From a virus, in IMG/VR virus record IMGVR_UViG_3300042525_000059, positions 1 to 27,459 of that record: a stretch of 27,459 nt of DNA; one strand, given 5' to 3'. Each line of letters begins with the position of its first letter. Within the stretch, counting starts at the first letter, position 1. Both the position numbers and the translations under genes were made by a program. This document shows positions 6,501-23,903 of this stretch, one piece after another. The notes under the pieces were generated by a model, which searched no databases, had not been told where the DNA came from, and saw only the letters and a program-made list of their open reading frames with translations.

Positions 6501-6890
6501 GAATGGTACAAACGAGCCTGCGGCTTCGCCAAACTTACGACCTACTGACTCTTCGTATCCAGCTTCAGGTGCAAATGGTTTCTTCGCTGCGGCAGCAACC
6601 CCACGAATAGCTTCCTGTGCACGAGCTTCATACTGGTCAGGTAATAGCGCAGACGCGCCAACAGCAGCTTGCTCAACAAGCCCAATCGCTCCAGGCACTA
6701 TACCCTTGACGGCTTCCTTGAGTTGCCCGCCAATCGTCGGTTCAAAAGATAAGTGCTTAACAATCTCTTCGTCAGAGTACCCCTCGTTACGCGCTCCAAC
6801 AAGATTGAATTTACGTTTACCAGCAAGATACTCGGCTATCTCTGAGTAGCTATAACCTTCTTGCAATGCACGTCGGACATCAAAGGCCAT
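597..6890 (-). CDS. Giant polyvalent/DNA-ejection protein with metallopeptidase-like and ParB-like sites and LPD38-like C-terminus
   Basis: A 2097-residue protein, last gene of the late operon; ATG with AGGGG upstream. Order: two helical GYS-x-x-EI elements (8-23, 33-48); Ala/Gly-rich hydrophobic segment (about 120-165); Thr/Pro/Ala linker (about 273-311); coiled coil (about 320-400); second Pro-rich linker (about 627-660); LAHEIVH with HExxH at 908-912 and a later QEFIAEG offering a third zinc ligand (E967 or E971); TGHEGRHRA at 1139-1147, recalling the G-x-RR-x-x-A box of ParB-like folds; then about 840 residues (1258-2097) with IPFMNAYIQGMD around 1753 and a hydrophobic stretch ending in GDDDEYEGLRDY, typical of large polyvalent protein associated domain 38. 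Polyvalent proteins of this kind are virion-packaged proteins injected with DNA, thought to modify host or phage targets. Domain names rest on motifs by eye. Packaging is inference from the neighbouring internal-protein-like genes. Confidence 0.85.
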   Translation of the reverse strand: MAFDVRRALQEGYSYSEIAEYLAGKRKFNLVGARNEGYSDEEIVKHLSFEPTIGGQLKEAVKGIVPGAIGLVEQAAVGASALLPDQYEARAQEAIRGVAAAAKKPFAPEAGYEESVGRKFGEAAGSFVPFLGLGALGVAGRVGAGALATGSGAGEALTRAQQEGATPGQQSLSTGLGAVVGLSELITPFRILSRIPEGEVLTAANRIKRVAMAGGEEAAQEAAAGLAQNLIARGVYKPEQQLIEGLGEQAAYGGAVGALAQGLLDVALGRRAKTAATPAQPTTPAVEEQPAITTPAAPTAPTTFAPARGVPETATQQDLFTEENIQRTAQSTREAQDRLFKLRDEFDLYQRENERLAAAYEREADPVKKQQIYDQAVALAKPLNELKTQIEAVKGTLGAAEGARPGAGEPQLDFEAPLPSIGDRVGQVAKTEYRPDTGTVIGEEAAAPRLNEQQQRMLEEQRVQGIRDKIAAGEPVTQADMMRVKFLEREQYQEEAAKPTPDLDLSQQKVTRFPLTLQRTDIEQPKMKVQKQLAAPETRPVTEQDFRTMGIGATNKKLREEILGKDLANSEDRRFVKERLEAFASDPNRSPGIVKKVENFLDSPIFFEQMELPLAPRRKQRVKQPKQPVAGASESSVPVPDQGAAVAAPGPQAPVTTGVGEPALRAEPRDVAEGKQPRPLTEIQQRAAFSKGIGATYEEQLRTRQNQQAGKAVQQGSFSGVLDALEKSKNPIVQQVAKLARSLKTKIEVSKDAFENYKDERYTSRQLSIDSAKMHLGALDYIRQVAPQIEKLPDGAVLPYEVLGSNIQAYEDGEATSTYGLQTIVDNNHSMFAPLGLQGGAKLRTKEDFLNLRDAIERATKNIDENKLRLTSTAVAFPQTGVSGLYDVKSDTIKVSDYKSKDEHVLAHEIVHAQVSNIVANPKPAQRPTVQRLNKLYEYVKQHYKKEAANEDPDFYRPPYGVSSIQEFIAEGISNPRFQYALSRIKYQNTTAWDKFTEYIAKLLGLKNDNALTELLTIYGELTQPGVKAKTKGQGKLFMGAEGAVSDLFKKDDKGRFESDIGNVSESPDYKDRTRLIYLPIDTFLKLAEPTDFSKEDVNILTGNPKLKTVNNTLDRGEQLNTIPFLTIREGENGVHEVTGHEGRHRAFALSQRGYTHVPVAVRSSNIRWDQQSDPSKFDYIENWPTELLSEDGKVKVPFPISREQSAEPAVDPTNNLPDQLFFRQTPAPILTVAGQQAQAAVAAMAGITNAKPKGPQMSTLQKVGAFFQDPSYRQDQIDKFRVQVAYKGAAAESKLAMLNQYNGKIRDALGNIRPDVFMTAAEHADTMAVAVMKDGKLKLDPKVGWVAEKSTASFQGVIDKIKELGTKLGDQQLAFKLANDAFIARRANYFKQHPQLGISGLPDDAKIKAGMQAFKDFPELEAAFKEFTTFKNNLIDAGVDAGRFSKEQAAEWKEAADYVPWNRIKDYEDKIATSPQAYFRGLTNLKQMKEIRGGTDEINDIFDNMVGLSFWLVNGAIRNHAAVQLTDAFVSNGLGARQVRQGQPGVDPNKTIYIYRDGKPEVYEYESIADVYAFKGVESMGGPLLSSFTAFANILRRTTTATPQFAASQLFQDAYRATVTSGVKNPFEVAAKVLTGAVGAYRGDATTQQLEKFGIVGAYDLMPGRAKDEIEKEFGIRQRSVLEKGLSFMESFSIASDAALRKAVFEQTLEETKSPQFPDGDVLLARYRAQEVINFKRQGANRTVGLMRQLIPFMNAYIQGMDVFYRTMTGRGVAATERSEAFKMFLGTGVKLAALTTIYTMLVGDDDEYEGLRDYEKDKNFIVPGTGVKIPVAPEVGFFFKVIPERMYNYIASQGTERPQDAAALRKAIGTAAFDAFSGPNLTPQAVKPALELLVNYSFFTGTPIVGRGLEKLEPAQQFTDSTSEIAKMIGALAGISPMKLEYFVRGTTGIAGGTVLDLSNMLFTDRPDKRLYEMPAFKTFMYDKIPGGYKEQYYDLREKVEQVVYTMNGLKAQGRAEELQEYLNDDRINLLALRRSMNQIDQQLEKMRAFRKLISNDPTMTGAEKKDRLDEIERTENELLRAYNIPALRKEVAGL

Positions 6891-6902: not shown

Positions 6903-8741
6903 TTAACCACCAAACGTTGATAGAGGTGCCCTGTTTGCTGGGGGTTTAGTTTGCCCTCCGCCCATCTGTGCTCTCTTAAAATCTTCAAATGTTGGAAAGT
7001 CTTTTTTATACAATATAAAATTCTTTGTATATTCTTCCCGCAGCTCCGCTTCTGCTCTGGGCGCGTATCTGTCAACTTGCATTTGTCTGTAAGTTTTAGC
7101 AAATTCTGAATCTTTACCAAGACGTTCAATAAGCTGCATTTCGGGAGAGGGTCTGTTAGCCCCTATATTTGCTGCTTTTAGCTGTCCTTGAATCTGCGCC
7201 TGAGTGCGCTCCATAGCCGCAGCGTCTTGTGCCTTCTGCTTGTATAGACCCATTTCGCCTTCATACATAATCCCGGCAAGTCTATCAACACGTAGGTTGT
7301 ATTTATCCAGAGCGTTGTCGCGCCGTTCAATAGCTTTATCCAAACGTGCTTGATCTGCTTTCGTAAACTCTGCGGCTTCTTTGTTCTGGAGGGTACGGAT
7401 CTGACGATCTTGTAACTTGTAATCACGCTCAAGCTTATCAAGCTCTTTAATATCTTGTGCGTAACCTTTTACGGCACCTTCAGCACCCTTACCGATATTG
7501 ACAAACGCATGTGGGGATGCGCCGCCTAGAATGGCTAATCCTGCTTCAAGAACTCGCATATTGGCAGCTTCTTTCCGTTTTTGTGGAATCGCTTCAATAT
7601 CTTTGCGGTTCTCAGCAACCATATCTTTGAGAAGATTGAAGTCGTAGCCTTCATCAGTAAGCTGTTTGACTCGCTCACTTCTGATCTGCGAAAGCCCAGG
7701 AACCACCGGAATATCTTTGCCCCCTTCTGCTTGTAACGTACCTTCTGCGGCAGAGCGTGCGGCAGAAAACATGGGTACAGGCCCAAGTTCAGCAGATTTA
7801 GCAGGTGCTGGTGCTGCCGGTGCTGCGGGTGCAGCAGACGGAGCTTTCGGGGGTGGCGGTTTATTAGCCGCAGCTTGGGCTTCCGCTACAGCTTGTTGCT
7901 CCGCAGCTTGCGGGAATGTTTCTTGAGGTGGTTTTTTTGCATCCGCGATACGCTTAGCCTCTTCAGGCTTCATTGCGTTAATTTGTTCTTGCGTGTACCC
8001 CAACGCATATAACCGTTTTAGTGTGTCTAATGTTTCTGCTTCATTAGCATTTAGGTTATCCGAGCCGAACAAGGCAGTTCCTATTGCTGCTGCGCCTGGA
8101 AACGCACGCCCTAAATAGCTCAACCCACGAGAGAACATCGATGGTGTTGCAGCAGCAGGTGTTGCCGCTGCGCTTGGAAACGCTTGCGCGAACGTCGTGC
8201 CAGTAGGTCTTGGAGCACCACTCAGCCTTGGTTTAGGTTGCCCAAATCGATCTAGTTCAGGAAATAACTCCATCTGACCACCCGGAGCAAACCGTTGCAC
8301 ATCACCACCACCGGCAAATGCAACCATGCCGCCATCAGCATAGTCAAACATGTTGTCAGGTACAGGTAGGCCGGAGATACCCCGCTCCATCGCAGGTGAC
8401 GGCACTTGGTTATTACTGACAGCAACTTGACCGCCGTAGGCCATACGTGTTGGGGGTTGTTGCGGTGCGGCTTGGGGGGCCATAGCAGACATGCCCATTG
8501 GTTGTGGAGGCGGTGCCATCCCAACATCTTGAGCTACGGTAGAACCGGACGGTGGTTGAGTGTTTGCAGCGACAATCCGTTGGATCGTCATCATTGCCAT
8601 AAGTGCCGTCGTGGGGTCAATCTTTCCGGCAGCAGCGTCCATCTTTAGGCGTTGCACGTTAGATCCATAAGTGGCAACAATGTCACCAACCGTACGATCT
8701 GCGGTCCTATTGACCGCTTTTTCTAGTGTCCGAAGGCTCAT
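6903..8741 (-). CDS. Putative internal virion (ejection) protein, Ala/Gln-rich
   Basis: A 612-residue protein starting ATG within an ATGA overlap with the preceding 382-aa gene, with GGGGGTAAAGG just upstream. The N-terminal 60 residues are helical. Residues 70-100 are Pro/Met/Ala-rich. Then come short glycine motifs: MAYGGQV (100-106), YADGGMVAFAGGGDV (134-148) and FAPGGQM (151-157). A GYTQEQI helix (249-255) precedes a Pro/Ala linker (293-317) and a charged coiled coil (about 420-520). No catalytic motif is visible. The composition, size and place between other long helical genes at the end of a late operon match the internal core or ejection proteins of podoviruses. Exact function is unknown. 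It ends 12 bases before the 2097-aa gene. Confidence 0.75.
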   Translation of the reverse strand: MSLRTLEKAVNRTADRTVGDIVATYGSNVQRLKMDAAAGKIDPTTALMAMMTIQRIVAANTQPPSGSTVAQDVGMAPPPQPMGMSAMAPQAAPQQPPTRMAYGGQVAVSNNQVPSPAMERGISGLPVPDNMFDYADGGMVAFAGGGDVQRFAPGGQMELFPELDRFGQPKPRLSGAPRPTGTTFAQAFPSAAATPAAATPSMFSRGLSYLGRAFPGAAAIGTALFGSDNLNANEAETLDTLKRLYALGYTQEQINAMKPEEAKRIADAKKPPQETFPQAAEQQAVAEAQAAANKPPPPKAPSAAPAAPAAPAPAKSAELGPVPMFSAARSAAEGTLQAEGGKDIPVVPGLSQIRSERVKQLTDEGYDFNLLKDMVAENRKDIEAIPQKRKEAANMRVLEAGLAILGGASPHAFVNIGKGAEGAVKGYAQDIKELDKLERDYKLQDRQIRTLQNKEAAEFTKADQARLDKAIERRDNALDKYNLRVDRLAGIMYEGEMGLYKQKAQDAAAMERTQAQIQGQLKAANIGANRPSPEMQLIERLGKDSEFAKTYRQMQVDRYAPRAEAELREEYTKNFILYKKDFPTFEDFKRAQMGGGQTKPPANRAPLSTFGG

Positions 8742-9886
8742 CCTTTACCCCCACTAGGAAGCATGTTGTATAGGCTCACACCTGTCAGTCCCATACCGGT
8801 TAGCTGACTAGCAAAACTCGGTGGGGGCGTTGTCGTTGTCTGTGTCGATGAAGTTGTTGGTATACCTCGTAATAAATTAGAAAGCTGACCAACCTGAGTC
8901 TGCCCGTACTGTGCTTGATCGATAAGCATTTGACGTTGAGCATCCATTTGCTGCTGTTGGATAGCCCTTTGTAAATCACCAAACGCACCTTGTGTCTTAA
9001 GCGTATCAAGTTCTGCCGCACGCTGCTGTGTACCAAGCTGACCAAATTGTCCCGCCAAAGACCCAAGATCTGCCGCAGAAGTTCGCCTAAGCTCCGCCGC
9101 TGCTTGTTGTGCAGATTGATTTGCTTTTTGAGCTTCTAATGACTTATTTGCACCAAGCTCTTGAGTACCCATAGCAGCAGCAAGATTTGCCTGATCGACC
9201 CCCATTTGTGCTGCGCGATCTCTTTCAAACTGGGCTTGAGCTTGCTCATACGCTGACTGTAATCCTTTAGCTTGAAGATCAGCTAACGTAGTCTGAAGCC
9301 CAGCTTCTCTCTGTCCCTGTAGCAGAGCTTGTCTAGCACCACCATAAGTACCTTGACGCGCCGCAGCAAGATTTTGTCCTAGTTGAGCTTGTTGTGCGTT
9401 TTTAAGTGCTGCCGCTTGCTGTTGATCTACAACCGCTTGCATATAAGGCGACATATACTGCTTTGCTATGTCGCTGGTGAACATCTGCGGACCTTCCCGC
9501 TGAAACATTGTTAGTTGCGGCGCAGCAATTTGCATCCCTTGATAATCTTGTAAGGCACGTAAACCTGATGCTGAAGCTTGCCCAGCCTGCGTACCTAGAG
9601 CATATTGCCCCGGCGTACCCATCGTACCGAGTTGCTGCCCCACAGATTCTTGAAAAGGTGAAAGTCCAGCAACACTGCCAGAACCCATTAAACCTGCTTG
9701 AAAAACAGGAGCATATTGCGCTTGATAAGCAGCTTGCCCTGTTAAACCGCCTGGATAGATCGCAGATATACCGCGCTCGATAAGTCCCGGTACAGCGGGT
9801 TTCCCATCTTTCGCTTCTACCCCTGAATAAAACGGTTTAAGTACGTCAGGGATCTCGCTCTGTAAAACTTGTGTCGTTGTAGTCAT
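8738..9886 (-). CDS. Putative internal virion protein, Gln/Ala-rich coiled coil
   Basis: A 382-residue protein; ATG preceded by GAGGAACTAATT. The N-terminal third is Gly/Gln-rich. AKQYMSPYMQAVVD (141-154) opens a long helical region to about residue 345, dominated by Q, A and L with TYGGARQALLQG at 180-191. A Thr-rich segment and a short hydrophobic C-terminus follow. The combination YMSPYMQ-V-D followed by YGG-RQAL and long Q/A helices recurs in environmental podovirus-like genomes beside connector and fibre genes. I read it as a structural or ejection protein. There is no signal peptide or enzyme motif. It overlaps the next gene by four bases and follows the 1194-aa gene after ten. Confidence 0.75.
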   Translation of the reverse strand: MTTTTQVLQSEIPDVLKPFYSGVEAKDGKPAVPGLIERGISAIYPGGLTGQAAYQAQYAPVFQAGLMGSGSVAGLSPFQESVGQQLGTMGTPGQYALGTQAGQASASGLRALQDYQGMQIAAPQLTMFQREGPQMFTSDIAKQYMSPYMQAVVDQQQAAALKNAQQAQLGQNLAAARQGTYGGARQALLQGQREAGLQTTLADLQAKGLQSAYEQAQAQFERDRAAQMGVDQANLAAAMGTQELGANKSLEAQKANQSAQQAAAELRRTSAADLGSLAGQFGQLGTQQRAAELDTLKTQGAFGDLQRAIQQQQMDAQRQMLIDQAQYGQTQVGQLSNLLRGIPTTSSTQTTTTPPPSFASQLTGMGLTGVSLYNMLPSGGKG

Positions 9887-9896
9887 AATTAGTTCC

Positions 9897-12800
9897 TCAA
9901 GCAGGCATCAAACGACCCATATCAACTTCGGGCGGTTGTCTTGTTGTGCCATGTCGTGCTTTCCTAACTCGATCCATCATGGCATAAAGTTTCTTAGACC
10001 CAGCGTTACTGGAGCCGTTACCTAGATCTGCAACAACATCGGCAGGGATCACAAACTCTCCATCGGCAAGACGCGCCTCTTGAACACCCTCGATGGTAGC
10101 AGGCACACTATCACTCATGCCATCCCCTGCGCCATTTATTGTGCGTGGTTCGTTAGCAGGCCCAGTAGCACCTCCAGCAACCATTGCGGCAATCTCACCA
10201 CCTCCAGCAAACCCACGCATCAATCTACGGAAAAGATCTTCGTAGTATTGCTTTTCTTCTTGGGATTTTGCAGTCAGTGCAGCTTGTTGAGCTTGGAACG
10301 CGTTCATTTCATCAGCGGCTTTAACACCGCCCATGCCCACTGCCGCAGCACCCGCAGCCATTGTTGGGGTTAGTTGTTTACCAAATACTGAACCTTGTCC
10401 GGCAGTGAAGGCTTCTTGTGCAGCGCGATCCCCCATAGCAGCTTCCATACCACCACGACCGACTGCTTGTATGTTTTCACCGAGTTGGGGTAAGAATCCT
10501 TTGCTGCTATCAAATACATTTCCGAATTTTGGTAACGCTGCATTAGCCGCTTGTGTAGCTTGTTGTGCTGCTGTTTGTTGCGCTAAATTTGATGTGACCG
10601 CTTCTCTACTCATACCTTCTAACGCGGCGGGGTCTATATTTGAAATGCTTGGCGTGATAGGAATATCTCCACTAACTCCTGACGCAGCACCAGCACCCTG
10701 TGCCAAACTACCCATGCCATAAGACATCAAGCCTGACATCAAGCCACGTTTAAAGTCAAAGCCTTTGCCGCCACTAACAGCACCCGATAGCCCACTGATT
10801 AAAGCTTGAGCACCAAGGCCAATACCTGTAAATGGCAATACAAACGGTAGTACCTTACCCACACCTTTTAATACTTTCCTCCAACTGAAGTACTCAGGCA
10901 GGCCAGTCTGTGGATTTATAGTACCCGCACCACCTGCGGCTTGTAGCATCTGAGCTTCTTCGGGACTAATGTGGGCTAGCATCGTGTCGCCAAACCGACC
11001 CTTTTGTGCCATCTCTTGAGCGTAGCCTTTCATGGCAATACTGCCTAGACCACGACCAACATCACCGCCTTCAGCGTATTGGTATAAATATTCTGGTCTA
11101 TAGGGTATGGGGCGTCCGGTTCTTGGATCAATAGCTCCTTCTGGTGTATCAAAAGCAGGTCTCGTACTTTCAAACATATTAGCTGGAAAGTATTCAGCTC
11201 CAGTGCGCCCTTGCCTAATCATTAATTGCCGTCTTGCTAATTCGCGTGCTGCTGGGGTCATACCCGCCAACACCGCAGCTTCTAGTCCTTTAAGCTCAGG
11301 GTTAAACAGAACATCACGCGGCACATCAAAAATACCTCGCTTACGCGCTAGTTCTACCGTAGCGGGGGTAAGTCCAAAATCCTCAAACGAGAACTTCTTC
11401 TCCCCAGCCATTTCTGTTTTGCCGCCCTCGGCAAGGGCTATTACACCCCCAGTTTTAGAGAACGAAACTGATTGATCTGGAGCACTTGGCACTGTCGTTG
11501 TAGATGCTACTGATATTGGCGCACCAGCGCCACCTGTACCTCCGGTAACACCGGCAAATTTAGCTCGTGCGGCAATTAAATCGTCTGCGGTTACTCCGTA
11601 AGTACGCATCGCATCAGCTACTTGAACCGGCGATAATCCTTGATTAAGTGCAGTTGCTATATTTTCGTAGTACTTAGCTTGCCCAATACCACCTGGGGCA
11701 CTAGCAGCCGCAAGCCCACCTTGGGAAGGTGAGGTAAACCCTGGCGTAGCATATGAAAGCGGTGGTGGAGCAATAGAGGATATGCCTTTATTTGTGGATT
11801 GAATATTTAAATAGTCTGGGCTACTCGTTAAAAACGAGGCATATTCCGAAGCAGATTTAAAAGGCGTAGCACTTTTCTGTTTTTCTTCAAAATAGCTTCG
11901 TTGTAGTGGGGTAGGAGCAGTACCAAATAACTGAGCGTAAATAGCCGCAGCGTCCGAGTACGGTAATCGACTTTCAGTTGTGCTTTCTTTAGCAGCCGTG
12001 GAGTATGTCTTTGGTTCGCTAATCCCAGATTTACCAATAGTACGAGTAATAAGTTCTAGAGGAGTTGCTTTAGCTTCTGATAAAAGCTGACCTAACCCAC
12101 GCGACGTAGCTAATTCTGTGGGTGCTTGATAAAGTTCTTTAAATCCATAGGTTTTAGGATACGAAGATTGCCCTTGCGTTTGGGCTTGTACATTTTGTAA
12201 CGCCGATAATCCTGCACCTTTAGCCTGTTCTTGCCCTTGCGTAGCCACACCTTGATAGACGGTTGAAGGTTTTTCAGTTGCTTTTGATGCTTCCGTAGCT
12301 AATCTTGCTTTTTCACTTAAAAGATAATTTTTAAACGTATTAGCATCTGTGTAAGGATTAGTGCCTTTTTGATACGCATTAAAATTATTAAGTTCATTAA
12401 TACTTGGATCACGACCAAATACGCTTTTAAAAGTAGCTATAGCAGTAGTTTGATCTAATGGTTTTATAGCTGTTGTGTTTGCTGTGTTTGCTGTGTTTGT
12501 TGTGTTTGTTGTGTTTGCTGTGTTTGCTGTGTTTGCTGTGTTTGCTGTGTTTGCTGCGTTTGTAATTGATTTAAGATAATCGGCGTAATCAGTAGTGCCT
12601 TTTAGGTAGTTCTCAAACGCGGTGGTCGATGCCAAACGAGGGTCGTTTGCCCCTATCGATGCAAAGTTTTTAAGTTGTTGTTCGCTTGGTTCTCTACCAA
12701 ACAATTTTTGAAATACGGCACTTGCATCAGCGGTTGAAATGTTTTTGTTAGCCACTTGAGTAGCAGTATTAACAGCAGCAGCGTTATCAGTAACGGCTTG

Positions 12801-13481
12801 ATTTCCGCCTAAAAAATCAGGAATATTTCTTGGGTCTGTCTCGCCTTCTTCATAACGCCCTGTATCAAAATTGTACTCTCCGGCGTTTTTGAACGAATAA
12901 GGCGTGGCTCCCATCGCTTGTGTAAATTCTAGGCTTGATGGGCTTACATCCTTGAACCCTTCTTTTGAACTATCAATAACACCCTGTTGTTGATTAATAT
13001 AAGCCTCTTGTCGAGCAATAGAATTTCTCATGTACTCAGGTGTCATCCCGCCTTGAACAAGAGATGGATTCTTCTCAATAGCCGCTAAATAATTTTTGTC
13101 GTTTTGAAGTAAGCGCTGCTTGCTATCTAAATTTTGCTGCGCGTTGTAAGCACGCAAGATATCGTTGGCTTGCGTGGAATTAATTTTTCCTTGAGCTATA
13201 TCTTTAGCAAGATAAAACTCTTTGACAGCCTCTTGTGCATCATCATAACGTGATGCTTGATAAGACCCTGGTATAGCCCCTAACTGATCAGCGTAAGAAC
13301 CAAGGTGTTGCATTAACGTTGTCCAGTAATCCAACCCACCGCCAGACATACTAAGAAACTGCATGGCGTCACTGACTTGCTGCGCGGCATTTGGGTCCAT
13401 ACGCTCTCTACCGGCAAACAAATCGCTTATAAGATTTTCTTGTGTGTAAGGGCGATAGTTGGTGAGATTGCTAGTTGTCAT
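9897..13481 (-). CDS. Large modular virion protein (putative ejection or tail protein)
   Basis: A 1194-residue protein; ATG with GAGGTAAATC upstream. The N-terminal 245 residues are mostly helical. Three related segments of about 45-60 residues share L/V-FG-x-x-P: KLFGREP (near 257-263), SVFGRDP (near 352) and QLFGTAP (near 525). Each is followed by a helix and F/Y-x-x-F/Y-L, distantly like DUF4214-type modules. The first two are joined by an (Ala/Thr)-Asn-Thr linker encoded by a 9-bp repeat (about 307-336). Later come GLSPVQVADAM, then GG motifs (GGVIALAEGG, YAEGGDVGRG). The C-terminal 100 residues contain GAGDGMSDSVPATIEG, LADGEFVIPADVV and LYAMMDRVRKAR, a conserved ending in many environmental phage proteins. 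It heads the four-gene internal-protein block. The molecular role is unknown. Confidence 0.75.
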   Translation of the reverse strand: MTTSNLTNYRPYTQENLISDLFAGRERMDPNAAQQVSDAMQFLSMSGGGLDYWTTLMQHLGSYADQLGAIPGSYQASRYDDAQEAVKEFYLAKDIAQGKINSTQANDILRAYNAQQNLDSKQRLLQNDKNYLAAIEKNPSLVQGGMTPEYMRNSIARQEAYINQQQGVIDSSKEGFKDVSPSSLEFTQAMGATPYSFKNAGEYNFDTGRYEEGETDPRNIPDFLGGNQAVTDNAAAVNTATQVANKNISTADASAVFQKLFGREPSEQQLKNFASIGANDPRLASTTAFENYLKGTTDYADYLKSITNAANTANTANTANTANTTNTTNTANTANTTAIKPLDQTTAIATFKSVFGRDPSINELNNFNAYQKGTNPYTDANTFKNYLLSEKARLATEASKATEKPSTVYQGVATQGQEQAKGAGLSALQNVQAQTQGQSSYPKTYGFKELYQAPTELATSRGLGQLLSEAKATPLELITRTIGKSGISEPKTYSTAAKESTTESRLPYSDAAAIYAQLFGTAPTPLQRSYFEEKQKSATPFKSASEYASFLTSSPDYLNIQSTNKGISSIAPPPLSYATPGFTSPSQGGLAAASAPGGIGQAKYYENIATALNQGLSPVQVADAMRTYGVTADDLIAARAKFAGVTGGTGGAGAPISVASTTTVPSAPDQSVSFSKTGGVIALAEGGKTEMAGEKKFSFEDFGLTPATVELARKRGIFDVPRDVLFNPELKGLEAAVLAGMTPAARELARRQLMIRQGRTGAEYFPANMFESTRPAFDTPEGAIDPRTGRPIPYRPEYLYQYAEGGDVGRGLGSIAMKGYAQEMAQKGRFGDTMLAHISPEEAQMLQAAGGAGTINPQTGLPEYFSWRKVLKGVGKVLPFVLPFTGIGLGAQALISGLSGAVSGGKGFDFKRGLMSGLMSYGMGSLAQGAGAASGVSGDIPITPSISNIDPAALEGMSREAVTSNLAQQTAAQQATQAANAALPKFGNVFDSSKGFLPQLGENIQAVGRGGMEAAMGDRAAQEAFTAGQGSVFGKQLTPTMAAGAAAVGMGGVKAADEMNAFQAQQAALTAKSQEEKQYYEDLFRRLMRGFAGGGEIAAMVAGGATGPANEPRTINGAGDGMSDSVPATIEGVQEARLADGEFVIPADVVADLGNGSSNAGSKKLYAMMDRVRKARHGTTRQPPEVDMGRLMPA
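12474..12563. repeat. 9-bp tandem repeat (10 units) in the 1194-aa gene
   Basis: Ten consecutive nonamers of consensus TGTGTTTGC occupy 12474-12563. Units 3 and 4 and the last differ by a single base or two. On the coding strand they encode repeated (Ala/Thr)-Asn-Thr. Since the unit is a multiple of three, gain or loss of units changes linker length without a frameshift. Confidence 0.95.
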
Positions 13482-13489
13482 GATTTACC

Positions 13490-14080
13490 TCAAGCGGTCA
13501 TCCAGACCATTGTTGCAATTACAGACGGTATAGCTGGTCTAGTTGGAGAAGAAGGGGCTGTGTAATGCTCTAAATAGGTACCCACATCAGTCGTACACCA
13601 CACAATCTCAACATAGTCACCACTTTTAAGGGTTAAGAAAAAGTTGAGGGCCGCAACACTGTGGTACGGGTCACCTACGCCTTTACGTGGCGCAAGACCA
13701 AATCTTGTGTTTGAATCTGTAATATCAGTACCATTTTTACGAAACCAAATATCAATGTCTTGAGACGCGTTAGTTGTATTAACAAGTTGACAACTGAACT
13801 GGATGTTGTACGTACCTGAAGTATCGACGTACATTCTTGAATTACTACTAACTTCCACCCCTACAGAATAAGACGTTGTGTTAAACGTCATAGGATAAGC
13901 TATTGTCGTAGATACTGCTATCTGGTCGGTTGTATCATAAAAAGAACCATATGGCACTAAAAAATTATCAAAACGGTTAAAGTACAAACGTAACGCACGG
14001 TTAAGCTCATTCTGTTGCCGTACATCATATTGAGGCGTAGATAGCGGTAATGCTGGAGATCTAAATGCGAAATAACCCAT
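13490..14080 (-). CDS. Jelly-roll/C1q-like virion protein
   Basis: A 196-residue protein. I place the start at ATG 14080, one base after the stop of the 637-aa gene (TAG-C-ATG). The longer frame would need a TTG at 14110 and a 28-base overlap. The N-terminus (MGYFAFRSPALPLSTP) is followed by a helical NELNRALRLYFNRFDNFL segment. Then a beta-rich domain contains SGTYNIQFSCQL, DIDIWFRKNGTDI, LNFFLTLKSGDYVEIVWCTT and a C-terminal RPAIPSVIATMVWM. This order (strand, x-W-F-K/R-NG, LKSGD-E-W, RPAIPSV) is that of the C1q/TNF-like trimeric beta-sandwich found in phage fibre heads. It is probably a receptor-binding or decoration protein. The position after the tail-needle-like gene suggests a tail-tip location. 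Function is inference. Confidence 0.7.
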   Translation of the reverse strand: MGYFAFRSPALPLSTPQYDVRQQNELNRALRLYFNRFDNFLVPYGSFYDTTDQIAVSTTIAYPMTFNTTSYSVGVEVSSNSRMYVDTSGTYNIQFSCQLVNTTNASQDIDIWFRKNGTDITDSNTRFGLAPRKGVGDPYHSVAALNFFLTLKSGDYVEIVWCTTDVGTYLEHYTAPSSPTRPAIPSVIATMVWMTA

Positions 14081-14081
14081 G

Positions 14082-15995
14082 CTATCGTTTTCCGTCTGGG
14101 CGTACGTCAAGACGAAGCGAACCCAACTGCCATTGCACTCCTAAATCTGTAGACTCAACCTTAAGCGCCATTTGTCTACCACGAGCACGGATAAATACCT
14201 GCTCTGTGTACTGGTCAATCGTTGCGCTACTAGAAACAACACTTTGAGTATCGGACGCCGTGTTAGCGTAGGCGCTACCTGAGAACCTTTTAGGACGCAT
14301 GGTCATGGTTACAGTTGGTGACGCGGCTGTCGATTCCGTAAAATTAAAGTCAGGCAGCAAACGTCTGGTTAGCATGAACTGCTCCCCATCACCCAAATCA
14401 AAATCAGAAGACTGAATATACGAAGTCATTGGGGCATCACCGTCATTTACCCCATATTCATGTAAGTATTGATACCCGATAGACGCGCCTTCTTCAGTAA
14501 CGCAAGCAACCGGATAATCTCGTAGTGCTGTGTCTAGCCAAGCTGTACGTACAATCTCACCATAATACCAAGCGTTTTCTAAGTGATTAAAAATAACGTA
14601 CCGATCATTCCACGTTGAATTTGCACTAGGGTAAAACCACCAAATTTCAGTAAACCCTTCGTTGCTTCCACAAACAATTTGATCGACTTGATTCATGTTA
14701 ATGTCTTGATAGACATACTGACGTAACGTGCAAGGCAGCGTTTGCACCTGACCTGAATAGACATAGAATTTATCCTGTCCCATCCAGTACGTAACGTTAT
14801 TAGCTGTAGCTACAGCTCGCGGCCCGATGATCGAAATGTTATCAGCAAGTTCTTGTAGCCCAAACACATCAGTTGTGCCCAGATACTGCAATGAATAGAG
14901 ACTAGAGTTTGTCCATACCAAAATTTCTTGGCGTGTTGCTAACGCACGAACTATTCTAGAACCACGAGAAACTCTAATAAACCCAGCAGAAGTTGTTGCT
15001 GAAGGAGTCCAATTTTGCGGCTCGTCTTGATTGGCCCAACGAATAAGAAGGGGATCGTAGTCTGTAGAAAGGCCACTATAAGGTTGGCACCCAAACGCCA
15101 GAAGATGTTTATCATTCTGGGATACTAAAGTCTGCATCGCCGCAGTTGGTACGTCAGATGCGCCAGAAAGTGAAGACAATAAAACTGCCCGAGTACTAAG
15201 CGCTGTTTCGGGGTTTGTAAGAGACCCTCGTTCCCAGTAATAAATTTTACCGCTACGGATATTCATCACAAGGTCGTTGTCGAAGTTGTCAAACCACCAA
15301 TCACGTTGCTCCAAATTTATAGGCGTAGACCCGCCTAATCCCCACGCATAACTACCATTCCAAGCGCTTGCGCCCCATCCATAGCCATACGTATCAGACG
15401 CATATCCTGAAGCGATTCCGTACTTTGCAGTTACCGCCCCACCACCGTTTCCCGAGTCGGAAGAATTAGCTGTAATTAAAACAATTTGATCTTTGTTGTC
15501 GTTCGATCTTGCTTGTATGGTGTATGTATTAACCCCAGTCCTAGTTATCTCATAATCTTGATTAAGCACAGCGGCAGTTATATTCCCGCCCAAGCTAACA
15601 GCCCCGCTAAACGTAACAAAATCTCCAGTATCCGCACCGTGTGCGTTATCGGTAACCGTAATAGTAGAAGACCCGTTAGTAGCAGCAAAAGTTGCTGTAT
15701 TTGTGGTTGTAGTACGTAGCGGTGTTATGTTGTAGTACTGTCCGCCAGTCTCGATATATACGTGATTGTTTGTACCTAAAGCTAAGAAATTGTCGCTGAA
15801 AGAAGTGATCCAGTTAAATAGCTGACGGCAAGTACCAAAGAAGAAGTTCGGCGAATACTTTGCCCACCCACCTAATTTTTGTGGATACCCTGAGAAGAAT
15901 CTAACCTTGTCGCACTCGTACCAACCACCTTCGCCGGAGTAGCTCGTTTGGTCGCGGTTGACCCCTGGCCTAAAATTGAGTTTGAGAAATGGCAT
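14082..15995 (-). CDS. Tail/stabilisation protein (P22 gp10-like or T7 gp12-like family)
   Basis: A 637-residue protein; ATG with GAGGTGATCG upstream. It begins MPFLKLNFRPGVNRDQT and continues GGWYECDKVRFFSGYPQKLGG, an opening shared by large beta-rich tail proteins of environmental podovirus-like phages. The repeated strands with W/Y and N/D (for example GTNNHVYIETGGQYYNI, 74-90) suggest a beta-propeller. Residues about 100-165 form an inserted beta module (GDFVTFSGAV, LNQDYEITRTG, NTYTIQA) like modules found in many tail proteins. It is longer than P22 gp10 (472 aa), partly because of this insert. The likely role is in the tail tube or plug that keeps packaged DNA in place and contacts the cell envelope. 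Family membership is inferred from overall pattern and context, and the choice between gp10 and gp12 types is open. Confidence 0.7.
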   Translation of the reverse strand: MPFLKLNFRPGVNRDQTSYSGEGGWYECDKVRFFSGYPQKLGGWAKYSPNFFFGTCRQLFNWITSFSDNFLALGTNNHVYIETGGQYYNITPLRTTTTNTATFAATNGSSTITVTDNAHGADTGDFVTFSGAVSLGGNITAAVLNQDYEITRTGVNTYTIQARSNDNKDQIVLITANSSDSGNGGGAVTAKYGIASGYASDTYGYGWGASAWNGSYAWGLGGSTPINLEQRDWWFDNFDNDLVMNIRSGKIYYWERGSLTNPETALSTRAVLLSSLSGASDVPTAAMQTLVSQNDKHLLAFGCQPYSGLSTDYDPLLIRWANQDEPQNWTPSATTSAGFIRVSRGSRIVRALATRQEILVWTNSSLYSLQYLGTTDVFGLQELADNISIIGPRAVATANNVTYWMGQDKFYVYSGQVQTLPCTLRQYVYQDINMNQVDQIVCGSNEGFTEIWWFYPSANSTWNDRYVIFNHLENAWYYGEIVRTAWLDTALRDYPVACVTEEGASIGYQYLHEYGVNDGDAPMTSYIQSSDFDLGDGEQFMLTRRLLPDFNFTESTAASPTVTMTMRPKRFSGSAYANTASDTQSVVSSSATIDQYTEQVFIRARGRQMALKVESTDLGVQWQLGSLRLDVRPDGKR

Positions 15996-19240: not shown

Positions 19241-20566
19241 TCAAGTCGAAATTGGTACCCAGCTAGCTGCTTGGTCATCGTTAACTGTTTGCCAACTAGT
19301 TGTTTGGTCATCGTTAACTGTTTGCCAACTAGCTATTTGTGAGTTGTTAATAAGCTCCCATAAAAATCTAGCTGTAACAGCATCAGTTATGGTTGCGGTT
19401 TCAGAGATACTACTATTAAAAAGCCCGCCAACCTGCATTAAATCTATAGCTTGCGCCGACTCAAATACAGTATCAACGAAATCAGCCTGTGCTGCAATAA
19501 CATCCACTGCTGTCGCAGTTTCAGCAATAATGGTACTTAATACACGAAGCGAATCAACATCATCAACCCCTGTTGCGGTTTCAGAAATTAATTTGTCATA
19601 TAAAAGCCCAGCTACTGCGCTGTCTGCGCCTACGGAGGTTTCATCTACAACACTACTAACGCTTACCGCCGCAAAAGTAGCATCGGAACCTGTTGCACTT
19701 TCCGACACATTACCAGATGTATCGATGATGGTTGTTATAGCGTCAGCACCGAGCGCAACCTCTGAAACCGAAGCCACCAAGGTATACGTCGCGCTAATAC
19801 TGTCAGTTGCTGTTGCTGCCTCGGCAATCAAAGTGTTAATGATATGATCGGAGGAAACCACATCTGAACCTGTTGCCGATTCTGAGATCGTGCTTTGGTA
19901 GGCTAAGGATGCGTCAATAGAATCTGTTCCCGTAGCTGCCTCATCGACACTTGCCACAAGCGTATAAGTCGCCGTGATCTGATCTGCGCCTGTTGCCGCC
20001 TCAATAACCTGTGCAAGGAATGTCCCTGCTGATTCAACTGCATCTGCGCCGCTAGCCGATTCTGAGATCGTGCTTTGGTAGGCTAAGGATGCGTCAATAG
20101 AATCTGTTCCCGTCGCTGTTTCTGCAACATTCGGGTTGACTGTAAGACTTGCGTCAGTTGTATCTGCTCCCGCCGCTGTTTCTGCAATGTCCGTGCTTAA
20201 GGTTATGTTTGCAGAGAGTGCGTCAGTACCTGTGGCCGTTTCTTGAGTTTCGGCGTTTAATGTGGCATTTGACGTTATTTGATCCGCACCCGATGCCGTT
20301 TCCGCAGCAACAAGATTAAAAATATATTCAGACGTTACAGTCTCAGACGCCGTTGCTGTTTCTTCTGTGGTGGCGTTAAGTGTGGCAAGTGAGCTTATTA
20401 CATCTGTACCCGTAGCCGTTTCAGCTACTACTGCTAGCGCAGTGAGGGTTGTATCTAGTAAATCGGTGCCGGTCGCTGTTTCATTGACCTGTCCGTCAAA
20501 ACTAGGTGTTACTGCGCCTGCGGTACTCGCATACGGGGTTTGTGCATAGGCGCTAAAACCGAACAC
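19241..20566 (-). CDS. Virion protein made of nineteen 20-residue repeats
   Basis: A 441-residue protein with a GTG start at 20566 and AAGG upstream. Residues 1-27 (MFGFSAYAQTPYAS then Gly/Ala) resemble the start of environmental phage tail proteins. Residues 28-407 are exactly nineteen 20-residue repeats without insertions, consensus x-E-T-A-T-G-x-D followed by twelve variable positions that end in hydrophobic residues. The last 34 residues carry an 11-residue Trp repeat (SWQTVNDDQTT, SWQTVNDDQAA, SWVPIST). Similar ETATATD-type repeats occur in other aquatic phage proteins, but I know of no assigned function. A regular beta-solenoid or fibre shaft is plausible given the exact period. No cysteine or enzyme motif is seen. 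It lies between a 94-aa gene and the 573-aa fibre, so it is probably a tail appendage. Confidence 0.8.
   Translation of the reverse strand: MFGFSAYAQTPYASTAGAVTPSFDGQVNETATGTDLLDTTLTALAVVAETATGTDVISSLATLNATTEETATASETVTSEYIFNLVAAETASGADQITSNATLNAETQETATGTDALSANITLSTDIAETAAGADTTDASLTVNPNVAETATGTDSIDASLAYQSTISESASGADAVESAGTFLAQVIEAATGADQITATYTLVASVDEAATGTDSIDASLAYQSTISESATGSDVVSSDHIINTLIAEAATATDSISATYTLVASVSEVALGADAITTIIDTSGNVSESATGSDATFAAVSVSSVVDETSVGADSAVAGLLYDKLISETATGVDDVDSLRVLSTIIAETATAVDVIAAQADFVDTVFESAQAIDLMQVGGLFNSSISETATITDAVTARFLWELINNSQIASWQTVNDDQTTSWQTVNDDQAASWVPIST
19271..19332. repeat. 33-bp tandem repeat encoding the Trp motif
   Basis: The 29-base core at 19271-19299 recurs at 19304-19332, an offset of 33 bases. 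It encodes two copies of SWQTVNDDQ at the C-terminus of the 441-aa protein, and a third degenerate copy follows (SWVPIST). Confidence 0.95.
19875..19933. repeat. 59-bp direct repeat, copy 1
   Basis: Identical over 59 bases to 20055-20113, beginning GCCGATTCTGAGATCG. The offset is exactly 180 bp, three 60-bp units, pointing to a recent duplication or recombination of a three-unit block within the repeat array. Confidence 0.95.
20055..20113. repeat. 59-bp direct repeat, copy 2
   Basis: Second identical copy of the block at 19875-19933, encoding the same peptide with DSIDASLAYQSTISES. The flanking units (ATYTLVASV copies) are also similar at 180-bp spacing but no longer identical. Confidence 0.95.
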
Positions 20567-22979: not shown

Positions 22980-23903
22980 TCAGGTCACCCCTGGCCCAGT
23001 TACCCACCAAGTATCTGTAGCGACTTTGATAAGTGAAGCCATGCCTTTAGTAGCTACCGTACGGTTTCCTGTTGATCCATTGGCTAGTTGGAACGTCACA
23101 CCAGCACCAGAGATCGTTAAGTTGCCGCTGTTGTTGTTGAGCACTAAGATTGTGGTTCCCGTAGGAAAAGCAACAGAAGCGTTGGTTGGAACCGTGAGGG
23201 TCGCTGTACTGCCACCAGTGAAGTAAACATGGTCGCCCGCATCAGTCAGCGCAAGCGTATAGGCAGTCGCACCGCCAGAAACTTGTGGTGAGCCGATATA
23301 GCCCACTGAGCTAATAGGCATTGTGCTGTTCTTAAGCAACTTGCCCGTCGTGCCATCGTAGACCGCGAGAACCGAGTCTGTAGAGCTAGCAGGGCCAACC
23401 ACATCACCAGCACCCGCCAAAGCCATAAGGCTCCAGTAAGTTGCGTTCGTGGGTAGATTGCCCGTCGATGCCAGAATACAAATGTAAGTCGAGTTGTTAT
23501 AGCTGACTACATCATTAGCAACGTACGCTGTTGCGCCGTTATAAGCCCCTTGCCAGATAAATGATGTGCCGTTTGTACCGTTTGTGCCGTTGGTTCCTGC
23601 AAGAGCTAAAAGTGACCAATAGGTTGCGTTGGTAGGCAGATTGCCGGTCGAGTTAAGTATGCAGATATAGGATGAATTGTTGTACGAAACAACATCGTTT
23701 ACTACATATGCAGTGCCAGCACTGTAAGCGCCCTGCCATTTTGCACTTGCAGCATAAGTAAGGCTGTTCCAAGCGGTGGAGCCATTACCAATCTTAAATC
23801 GCCCTGTGTCCGTTTCAGCGCCGATTTCCCCTGCCATCAAAGTAGGGTTAGCAGAAGTCCACTGAGCAGCAGTGCCATTACGGGTTTGAATTTGAACGGC
23901 CAT
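22980..23903 (-). CDS. Tail fibre with two carbohydrate-binding-like repeats and a collagen-like link
   Basis: A 307-residue protein whose ATG overlaps the previous stop (TAATG). Residues 1-50 (IQTRNGTAAQW, NPTLMAGEIGAETDTGRFKI, GNGSTAWNSL) form the common fibre attachment domain (R-x-G-T-x-x-x-W to GE-x-G-x-E-T-D-T-G-x-x-K-I-G). Residues 55-103 and 116-164 are two copies, identical at 41 of 49 positions, of a module reading WQGAY, TAYVxNDVVSYNN, YICIL and TYWSL. This matches small carbohydrate-binding modules of the CBM5/12 type (W-x-x-x-x-Y-x-x-G-x-x-V-x-Y-x-G-x-x-Y). They are joined by GTNGTNGTNGT, a short Gly-x-y stretch. The C-terminal part begins GDVVGPASSTDSVLAVYDG. It is probably a trimeric fibre or spike that contacts surface sugars such as chitin-like or peptidoglycan-type glycans; the ligand is not determinable here. 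Confidence 0.85.
   Translation of the reverse strand: MAVQIQTRNGTAAQWTSANPTLMAGEIGAETDTGRFKIGNGSTAWNSLTYAASAKWQGAYSAGTAYVVNDVVSYNNSSYICILNSTGNLPTNATYWSLLALAGTNGTNGTNGTSFIWQGAYNGATAYVANDVVSYNNSTYICILASTGNLPTNATYWSLMALAGAGDVVGPASSTDSVLAVYDGTTGKLLKNSTMPISSVGYIGSPQVSGGATAYTLALTDAGDHVYFTGGSTATLTVPTNASVAFPTGTTILVLNNNSGNLTISGAGVTFQLANGSTGNRTVATKGMASLIKVATDTWWVTGPGVT

Follow-up and report, generated by a model that had tools for sequence, protein, structure and literature searches.

What does a run of near-identical nonamers do inside a viral gene, and does it change in length from one relative to the next? The question is raised by a 1194-residue ORF in the window, by which we mean the whole 27,459-base virus record analyzed here. 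The original prediction, made from the letters of the DNA, described a 9-bp in-frame repeat that would vary by slippage in steps of three residues without breaking the frame, and that might thereby tune the reach of a virion protein.

The nonamer array and the modules around it

Read on the plus strand, positions 12474-12563 are tiled by ten 9-mers, namely seven copies of TGTGTTTGC, two of TGTGTTTGT, and one of TGCGTTTGT. TRF delimits the array at 12474-12562 with a period of 9, 9.9 copies, and 96% matches, and its score of 157 is the highest among the 10 rows returned for the window. In the minus-strand ORF 9897-13481, the array encodes SITNAANTANTANTANTANTTNTTNTANTANTTAIKPL at approximately residues 307-336. 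Its units run head to tail, the period is a multiple of three, and the whole lies inside an ORF, the features by which we class it as a minisatellite. A collagen-type (Gly-X-Y)n pattern was not found in the array, as the (A/T)NT unit lacks Gly. Sequence, TRF, and ORF reading thus agree with the original prediction of ten near-identical in-frame nonamers encoding (Ala/Thr)-Asn-Thr, and a profile bears out their placement between two LFG-type modules, which prove to be modules 1 and 2 of three.

Table 1. Features of the window discussed in the text
Feature	Position	Strand	Basis or remark
Host gene of the array, 1194-aa ORF	9897..13481	-	Between a virion-structural/tail gene pair and a DNA-ejection-protein-like gene
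Ten-unit 9-bp in-frame array	12474..12563	-	(GCA/ACA)-AAC-ACA = (A/T)NT; sequence, TRF, null tests
LFG module 1	12573..12740	-	Residues 248-303; profile match, predicted helical
LFG module 2	12288..12458	-	Residues 342-398; profile match, predicted helical
LFG module 3	11790..11957	-	Residues 509-564; profile match
N-terminal block, exchanged module	12811..13462	-	CDS nt 20-671, 91.7% DNA identity with L008
C-terminal 85 residues (1110-1194), highly conserved	9900..10154	-	Near-invariant in the close clade
Downstream neighbor, DNA ejection protein-like	8738..9886	-	phrog_4287, E 4.3e-10
Virion structural protein, upstream of small ORF 13490-14110	14082..15995	-	phrog_3287, E 4.4e-68

The array exceeds what chance or the peptide would produce. 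A score of 157 was reached in 0 of 500 codon shuffles of the gene (maximum, 87; any array scoring at least 50 appeared in 14 of the 500) and in 0 of 1000 synonymous recodings drawn with the codon use of 11 window ORFs (mean, 86.8; maximum, 135). Within a 31-codon stretch, all 10 Asn codons are AAC, all 13 Thr codons are ACA, and all 8 Ala codons are GCA; usage of AAC, ACA, and GCA in the same 11 ORFs is 54%, 32%, and 30%. Because the recodings fall short and the codons are this uniform, we regard the array as a duplication at the level of DNA, beyond a merely repetitive peptide.

Of the five module copies used to build the LFG profile, three belong to the window and two to the L008 gene, so scores at these loci are partly by construction. 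Among the first loci collected, the profile matched only the window, L001 (the window's own DNA), L002, and two contigs with the L008 gene. An AlphaFold2 model of residues 237-405, based on three aligned sequences and of modest quality (mean pLDDT 67.9), predicts helical module blocks, mostly at pLDDT 70-87, joined by a linker that falls below pLDDT 50 at construct residues 75-101 (window residues 311-337). A Foldseek search of this two-module model against the PDB gave no match at an E value of 0.001 or better; the top match, the phycobilisome linker 3osj (E 0.57), and the S-layer protein RsaA, 6t72 (E 1.5), are not significant and serve as a lead only. By eye, the modules resemble DUF4214 (PF13946); we rejected this identity, as the PF13946 profile has no match in the window at E values up to 10.

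Other repeats occur in the window. A 33-bp repeat of 2.5 copies at 19259-19339 forms in-frame SWQTVNDDQ-type repeats at the end of ORF 19241-20566, whose protein is itself built of degenerate ETATGTD-like repeats. At 23565-23591, in ORF 22980-23903, an in-frame 9-bp repeat of three copies encodes Asn-Gly-Thr.

Length and repeat type of the linker in relatives

We examined 22 loci and 3 further loci for the array, all from assembled contigs. L002 is the only one of the relatives found that carries the same array, and variation of the (A/T)NT array itself is therefore seen in one pair. The window and L002 share 97.9% DNA identity over 2 kb. Of 2018 aligned nt, the 1929 outside the array contain 31 substitutions and zero indels, whereas the 89 inside contain 5 substitutions and all three gaps, with a net difference of 6 nt. 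The array measures 84 nt in L002 and 90 nt in the window, and direct reading resolves it into eight 9-mers and two 6-mers in L002 versus ten 9-mers in the window. Array length therefore changes, but not in clean nonamer steps, because the net 6 nt are accompanied by internal rearrangement. In this pair, the expectation that length would vary with the frame intact holds, and the expected step of three residues gives way to a rearranged difference of 6 nt.

An exact 24-base piece of the array occurs in only two viral contigs, those of L002 and of the unrelated L024. At L024 5192-5215, the 24-base repeat encodes Gln-Gln-Thr repeats in the sole stop-free plus-strand frame of the stretch shown. L024 was rejected as a relative, as this frame has no visible likeness to the window protein.

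A scan with the two-module alignment returned seven loci, three on known contigs and four new. With module ends set by the profile, the linker that joins modules 1 and 2 spans 38 residues in the window and 36 in L002, both of the A/T-N-T type, and 25 residues of an NTG/GNVG type (Asn-Thr-Gly) in L122; it is poly-Gln in L124 (16 residues), L008 (8), and L125 and L126 (7 each), all of these lengths varying by a few residues with the profile end. A second contig (L009, L025) contains an identical copy of the L008 gene, which was counted once, and 3 of 1953 bases distinguish L125 from L126. In all, five further distinct genes carry other repeat types, with linkers of 7, 7, 8, 16, and 25 residues compared to 36 and 38. 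Because relatives carry poly-Gln or the Asn-Thr-Gly type there, the variable feature is the linker position and not the nonamer.

In pairwise comparisons of the region that extends from module 1 to the stop codon, L008, L124, and L125 show 97.4-98.8% identity, and each pair differs by a single indel (24, 3, and 27 nt) that lies in the linker and consists of CAA/CAG codons. A length-variable linker with indel-free flanks is thus found in the window/L002 pair and, from module 1 to the stop, in L008, L124, and L125. L122 is 84.6-86.4% identical to these three genes; each of the three alignments contains several gaps, and no unit-by-unit alignment of the L122 linker with theirs is possible. Length polymorphism in related phages, the check suggested by the original prediction, is accordingly seen both between the window and L002 and at the same linker in other relatives. 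An invariant unit number, named in advance as the contrary outcome, is not what the relatives show, though only L002 has the same array.

The gene as a whole is rich in repeats. We compared 68 distinct coding sequences including the window's, with exact duplicates and contained fragments merged and with relatives of the C-terminal third represented by the best 80 of 276. At a TRF score of at least 40, these sequences contain 86 arrays, of which 85 have a period divisible by three; such a bias would be expected if only in-frame changes survive in a coding region. Arrays are absent from many of the more distant members. In the closer clade, 18 of 20 sequences have an array scoring at least 70, and L003 and L008 have none. 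Across 18 loci, one per gene type and some with the gene cut by contig ends, arrays scoring at least 50 occupy 3469 of 55320 nt of the gene (6.3%) versus 714 of 178509 nt outside it (0.40%). Unit types are varied and include Gly-Ala-Asn-Thr, Asn-Gln-Thr, Ala-Ala-Asp-Ala-Lys-Ala, and Val-Glu-Pro-Tyr. At the same place in the gene, L131 and L023 have neighboring arrays with 4 versus 3 copies of Gly-Gly-Thr3 and 5 versus 2 copies of Ala-Ala-Asp-Ala-Lys.

We aligned eleven close pairs, some over part of the gene, and whole-unit length steps do occur in its other arrays. L015 and L016 are exactly one 18-bp unit apart in an array, with 5 of 1938 bases differing outside arrays. L013 and L014, compared over the first 1.7 kb, differ by one 21-bp unit in an array and by four gaps outside. 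L124 and L125, aligned separately over the whole gene, differ by 21-bp and 54-bp tandem copies, by the 27 nt of poly-Gln, and by two 1-nt gaps that compensate each other. The more diverged L085/L094 pair has a 51-bp unit and smaller changes in arrays, with many gaps outside. In other pairs, the gaps are located elsewhere: L015/L017 has 8 outside arrays, mostly in one diverged patch, and 0 inside, and L085/L088 has 5 outside and 0 inside. Among further, more diverged pairs, L015/L023 has many gaps both inside and outside arrays, and L093/L096 and L080/L098 have many outside and none counted inside, with no array scoring at least 80 in the compared positions. L071/L072 and L097/L101 have zero gaps and no array scoring at least 80. 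As a separate observation, the ORF of L005 is split in two (6719-6774), unlike that of the near-identical contig L004.

Gene order, module exchange, and readings of the array

The 1194-residue protein has no Pfam, PHROG, or NCBIfam match over the cut-off, and neither these searches nor Foldseek with the two-module model revealed an ejection-protein likeness over the cut-off. A structure model of the C-terminal part was too poor for a fold search (mean pLDDT 42.2). As looked for in the case of an ejection or internal protein, the gene has a phrog_3287 gene on one side, whose product may resemble the P22 gp10 type, and a phrog_4287 gene on the other, and both types flank it in L121 as well. The phrog_4287 side also holds a 612-aa ORF that matches nothing clearly and the gene for a 2097-aa protein, in which LPD38 is accompanied by a weaker match of the virion RNA polymerase type; a holin-like gene and an endolysin gene are nearby. 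Gene order thus points to a protein located in the virion, probably an ejection-apparatus or internal virion protein, of what would be a short-tailed phage. In L121, the ejection-protein-like gene at 9215-10291 (phrog_4287, E 2.4e-23) encodes a protein in which the final 90 residues match the ends of many tail-fiber families. This C-terminal end is presumably of the chaperone type (peptidase S74-like), which seems unusual for an ejection protein.

The C-terminal third of the host protein has 276 confirmed relatives in viral-contig stretches; among the best 80, many of those seen have quite different N-termini. The conserved C-terminal 85 residues may perhaps represent a shared targeting, assembly, or processing signal. 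A scan of genome contigs for cellular homologues, using residues 790-935 only, gave 54 pattern stretches and 0 confirmed relatives. With the whole protein as the query, tblastn against annotated phages returned 6 records, none reaching 80% query coverage and all matching only residues 1071-1194 or parts of 812-910.

The neighbors are conserved across the 18 relatives' loci to a degree that the N-terminal portion of the target protein is not. The phrog_3287 protein is 73-98% identical over its full length in 15 loci and 29% identical over 81% in L121, and the remaining two loci start inside the target gene; the phrog_4287 ejection protein is 62-76% identical in 15 of the 18. Coverage of the first 560 residues of the target exceeds 15% only in L002 and L121 among these 18 relatives. 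L121 is a longer stretch of a contig with the L008 gene, which lies at L121:7001-8842. Its phrog_3287 protein is about 29-33% identical to that of the window in the aligned pieces, yet identity reaches 90% in the first 223 residues of the target. Within the L008 gene (CDS nt 1-1839), nt 20-671 match the window at 91.7%, nt 679-1839 match L124 at 97.3%, and the DNA immediately before the start codon resembles that of L124. At the right junction, a CAA-rich tract adjoins a further copy of sequence known from the LFG linker. Judged by these matches, the L008 gene is an intragenic recombinant and shows directly that distant phages have exchanged a module.

We think it likely that the array is a young, slippage-grown minisatellite that forms a disordered, hydrophilic spacer between the helical LFG modules of a mosaic and probably internal or ejection virion protein. 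Slippage is the mutational mechanism that the sequence suggests, and a flexible spacer is the role that the array would play. Replication or repair errors between units would add or remove whole codons, and since surviving changes come in multiples of three bases, the reading frame would be kept. Many lengths and compositions would be tolerated because the segment is only a spacer, and with a tolerant spacer and an intact frame the linker would rapidly change in length and unit identity between modules that stay recognizable. Since related phages carry other lengths and repeat kinds at this place, copying slips most likely resize the repeat. Either slippage or unequal recombination between units could renew the spacer, the latter giving the same pattern, and multiples of three are expected for any surviving coding indel.

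Among other readings, one that we regard as unlikely is that repeat tracts are kept as short homology for module exchange between phages. The right junction of L008, entering a CAA-rich tract beside the copied LFG-linker sequence, is consistent with this idea, as is the pair L007/L020, in which homology of about 91% stops at an array. Clade-wide, however, 14 of 176 breakpoints fall at arrays versus 17.1 expected, and none of five thresholds gave a significant enrichment (best, 9 of 46 versus 5.5 expected, with 153 of 2000 permutations as high). Arrays as recombination hotspots were rejected on these two tests, neither of them significant, and the single case of L008 is why we retain the junction reading as a rival.

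Somewhat less probable is a contingency locus, in which slippage itself would be selected, a change of the spacer would alter host range or DNA delivery, and several lengths would coexist, the "tuning of reach" of the original prediction. Very close relatives do differ in length, and repeats in the compared loci are concentrated in this gene, but a range of 7 to 38 residues and three compositions at one linker fit tolerance equally well. Selection for linker length, and hence a tuning of reach, is conceivable but unlikely.

It is very unlikely that an Asn-Thr-rich tract has been selected as a peptide, for example, as an interaction site, with the DNA repeat as a by-product. Asn-Thr-rich arrays recur in several relatives (GANT, NTG, NQT, and TNT units), but the codons are more uniform than the peptide needs, as seen in the synonymous recodings (0 of 1000), poly-Gln replaces the tract at the homologous linker, and the gene has other arrays rich in Ala/Lys/Asp, Pro, or Gly. 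An equally improbable assembly artifact would make the unit number wrong and the polymorphism noise, as short-read assembly of metagenome contigs such as these can miscount repeats, but the array is only 90 bp long and interrupted, the differences among relatives are in frame, often unit-sized, and accompanied by internal sequence changes, and the identical gene with its arrays recurs in L020, L021, and L022, which have different metagenome numbers, perhaps of related samples.

A wider and decidedly tentative extension of the slippage-grown spacer is that this phage protein family in the ejection-protein slot evolves as a kit of a near-fixed C-terminus, traded N-terminal modules, and self-extending, unit-swapping repeat linkers; the linkers would adjust newly acquired modules to a new phage-host delivery machine. 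If true, N-terminal modules are traded even between phages whose neighboring genes are about 30% identical, and one type of linker unit gives way to another (NT, NTG, poly-Gln, and others) at a joint that does not move. The locus offers a natural example, from uncultured phages, of a homologous linker changing both length and repeat type within a recognizable module pair. As a hypervariable mosaic gene with conserved neighbors beside an ejection-protein-like gene, it is a candidate for host-specific adaptation.

Comparison with known repeat systems

Our literature search, of partial coverage, turned up nothing that we recognized as dealing with the window gene family or with repeat types that change at its linker. 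Because in-frame repeat variation in phages has been published, as the consulted parts of three papers describe (PMC3368898, PMC6821194, PMC6426759), the event is of a known kind.

In a Helicobacter pylori SSR contingency locus, slipped-strand mispairing alters tract length; according to the sections consulted, this regulates expression of an adhesin (PMC4081817), whereas the window array would change protein length only. In mycobacteriophages, about 78% of microsatellites lie in coding sequence, where hexa- and trinucleotide units are favored (PMC6426759, consulted in part). The window array is likewise coding, but its unit is 9 bp compared to 1-6 bp in that work, whose consulted sections trace no homologous linker across relatives.

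Low-complexity tracts of phages, as the portions consulted of a proteome-wide survey explain, are possible products of slippage, recombination, and repair that were originally considered neutral linkers, and they average 33 residues (PMC6821194), a length near that of the window tract. Ala, Gly, and Pro are the most enriched residues and Asn is under-represented in the surveyed phage tracts, whereas the window tract consists of Asn, Thr, and Ala; the window gene is not treated in those portions of the survey.

The closest likeness is to the collagen-like and PCoil tail-fiber genes of Escherichia coli O157:H7 prophages, in which length differences are typically multiples of three residues (Col) or seven (PCoil), as stated in the consulted part of that study (PMC3368898). 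According to the same part, these too are phage structural genes with in-frame, fixed-period repeats whose tract lies between conserved domains (PMC3368898). The O157:H7 fibers are described there as rod-like stalks, a collagen triple helix or a proposed coiled coil, with named Pfam domains (PMC3368898). In contrast, the window tract is predicted to be disordered and its unit type changes at the homologous linker, and the window gene has no named domain and adjoins an ejection-protein-like gene. Phage collagen-like tail fibers are thus the published precedent, and what is new is a member in an uncharacterized mosaic gene.
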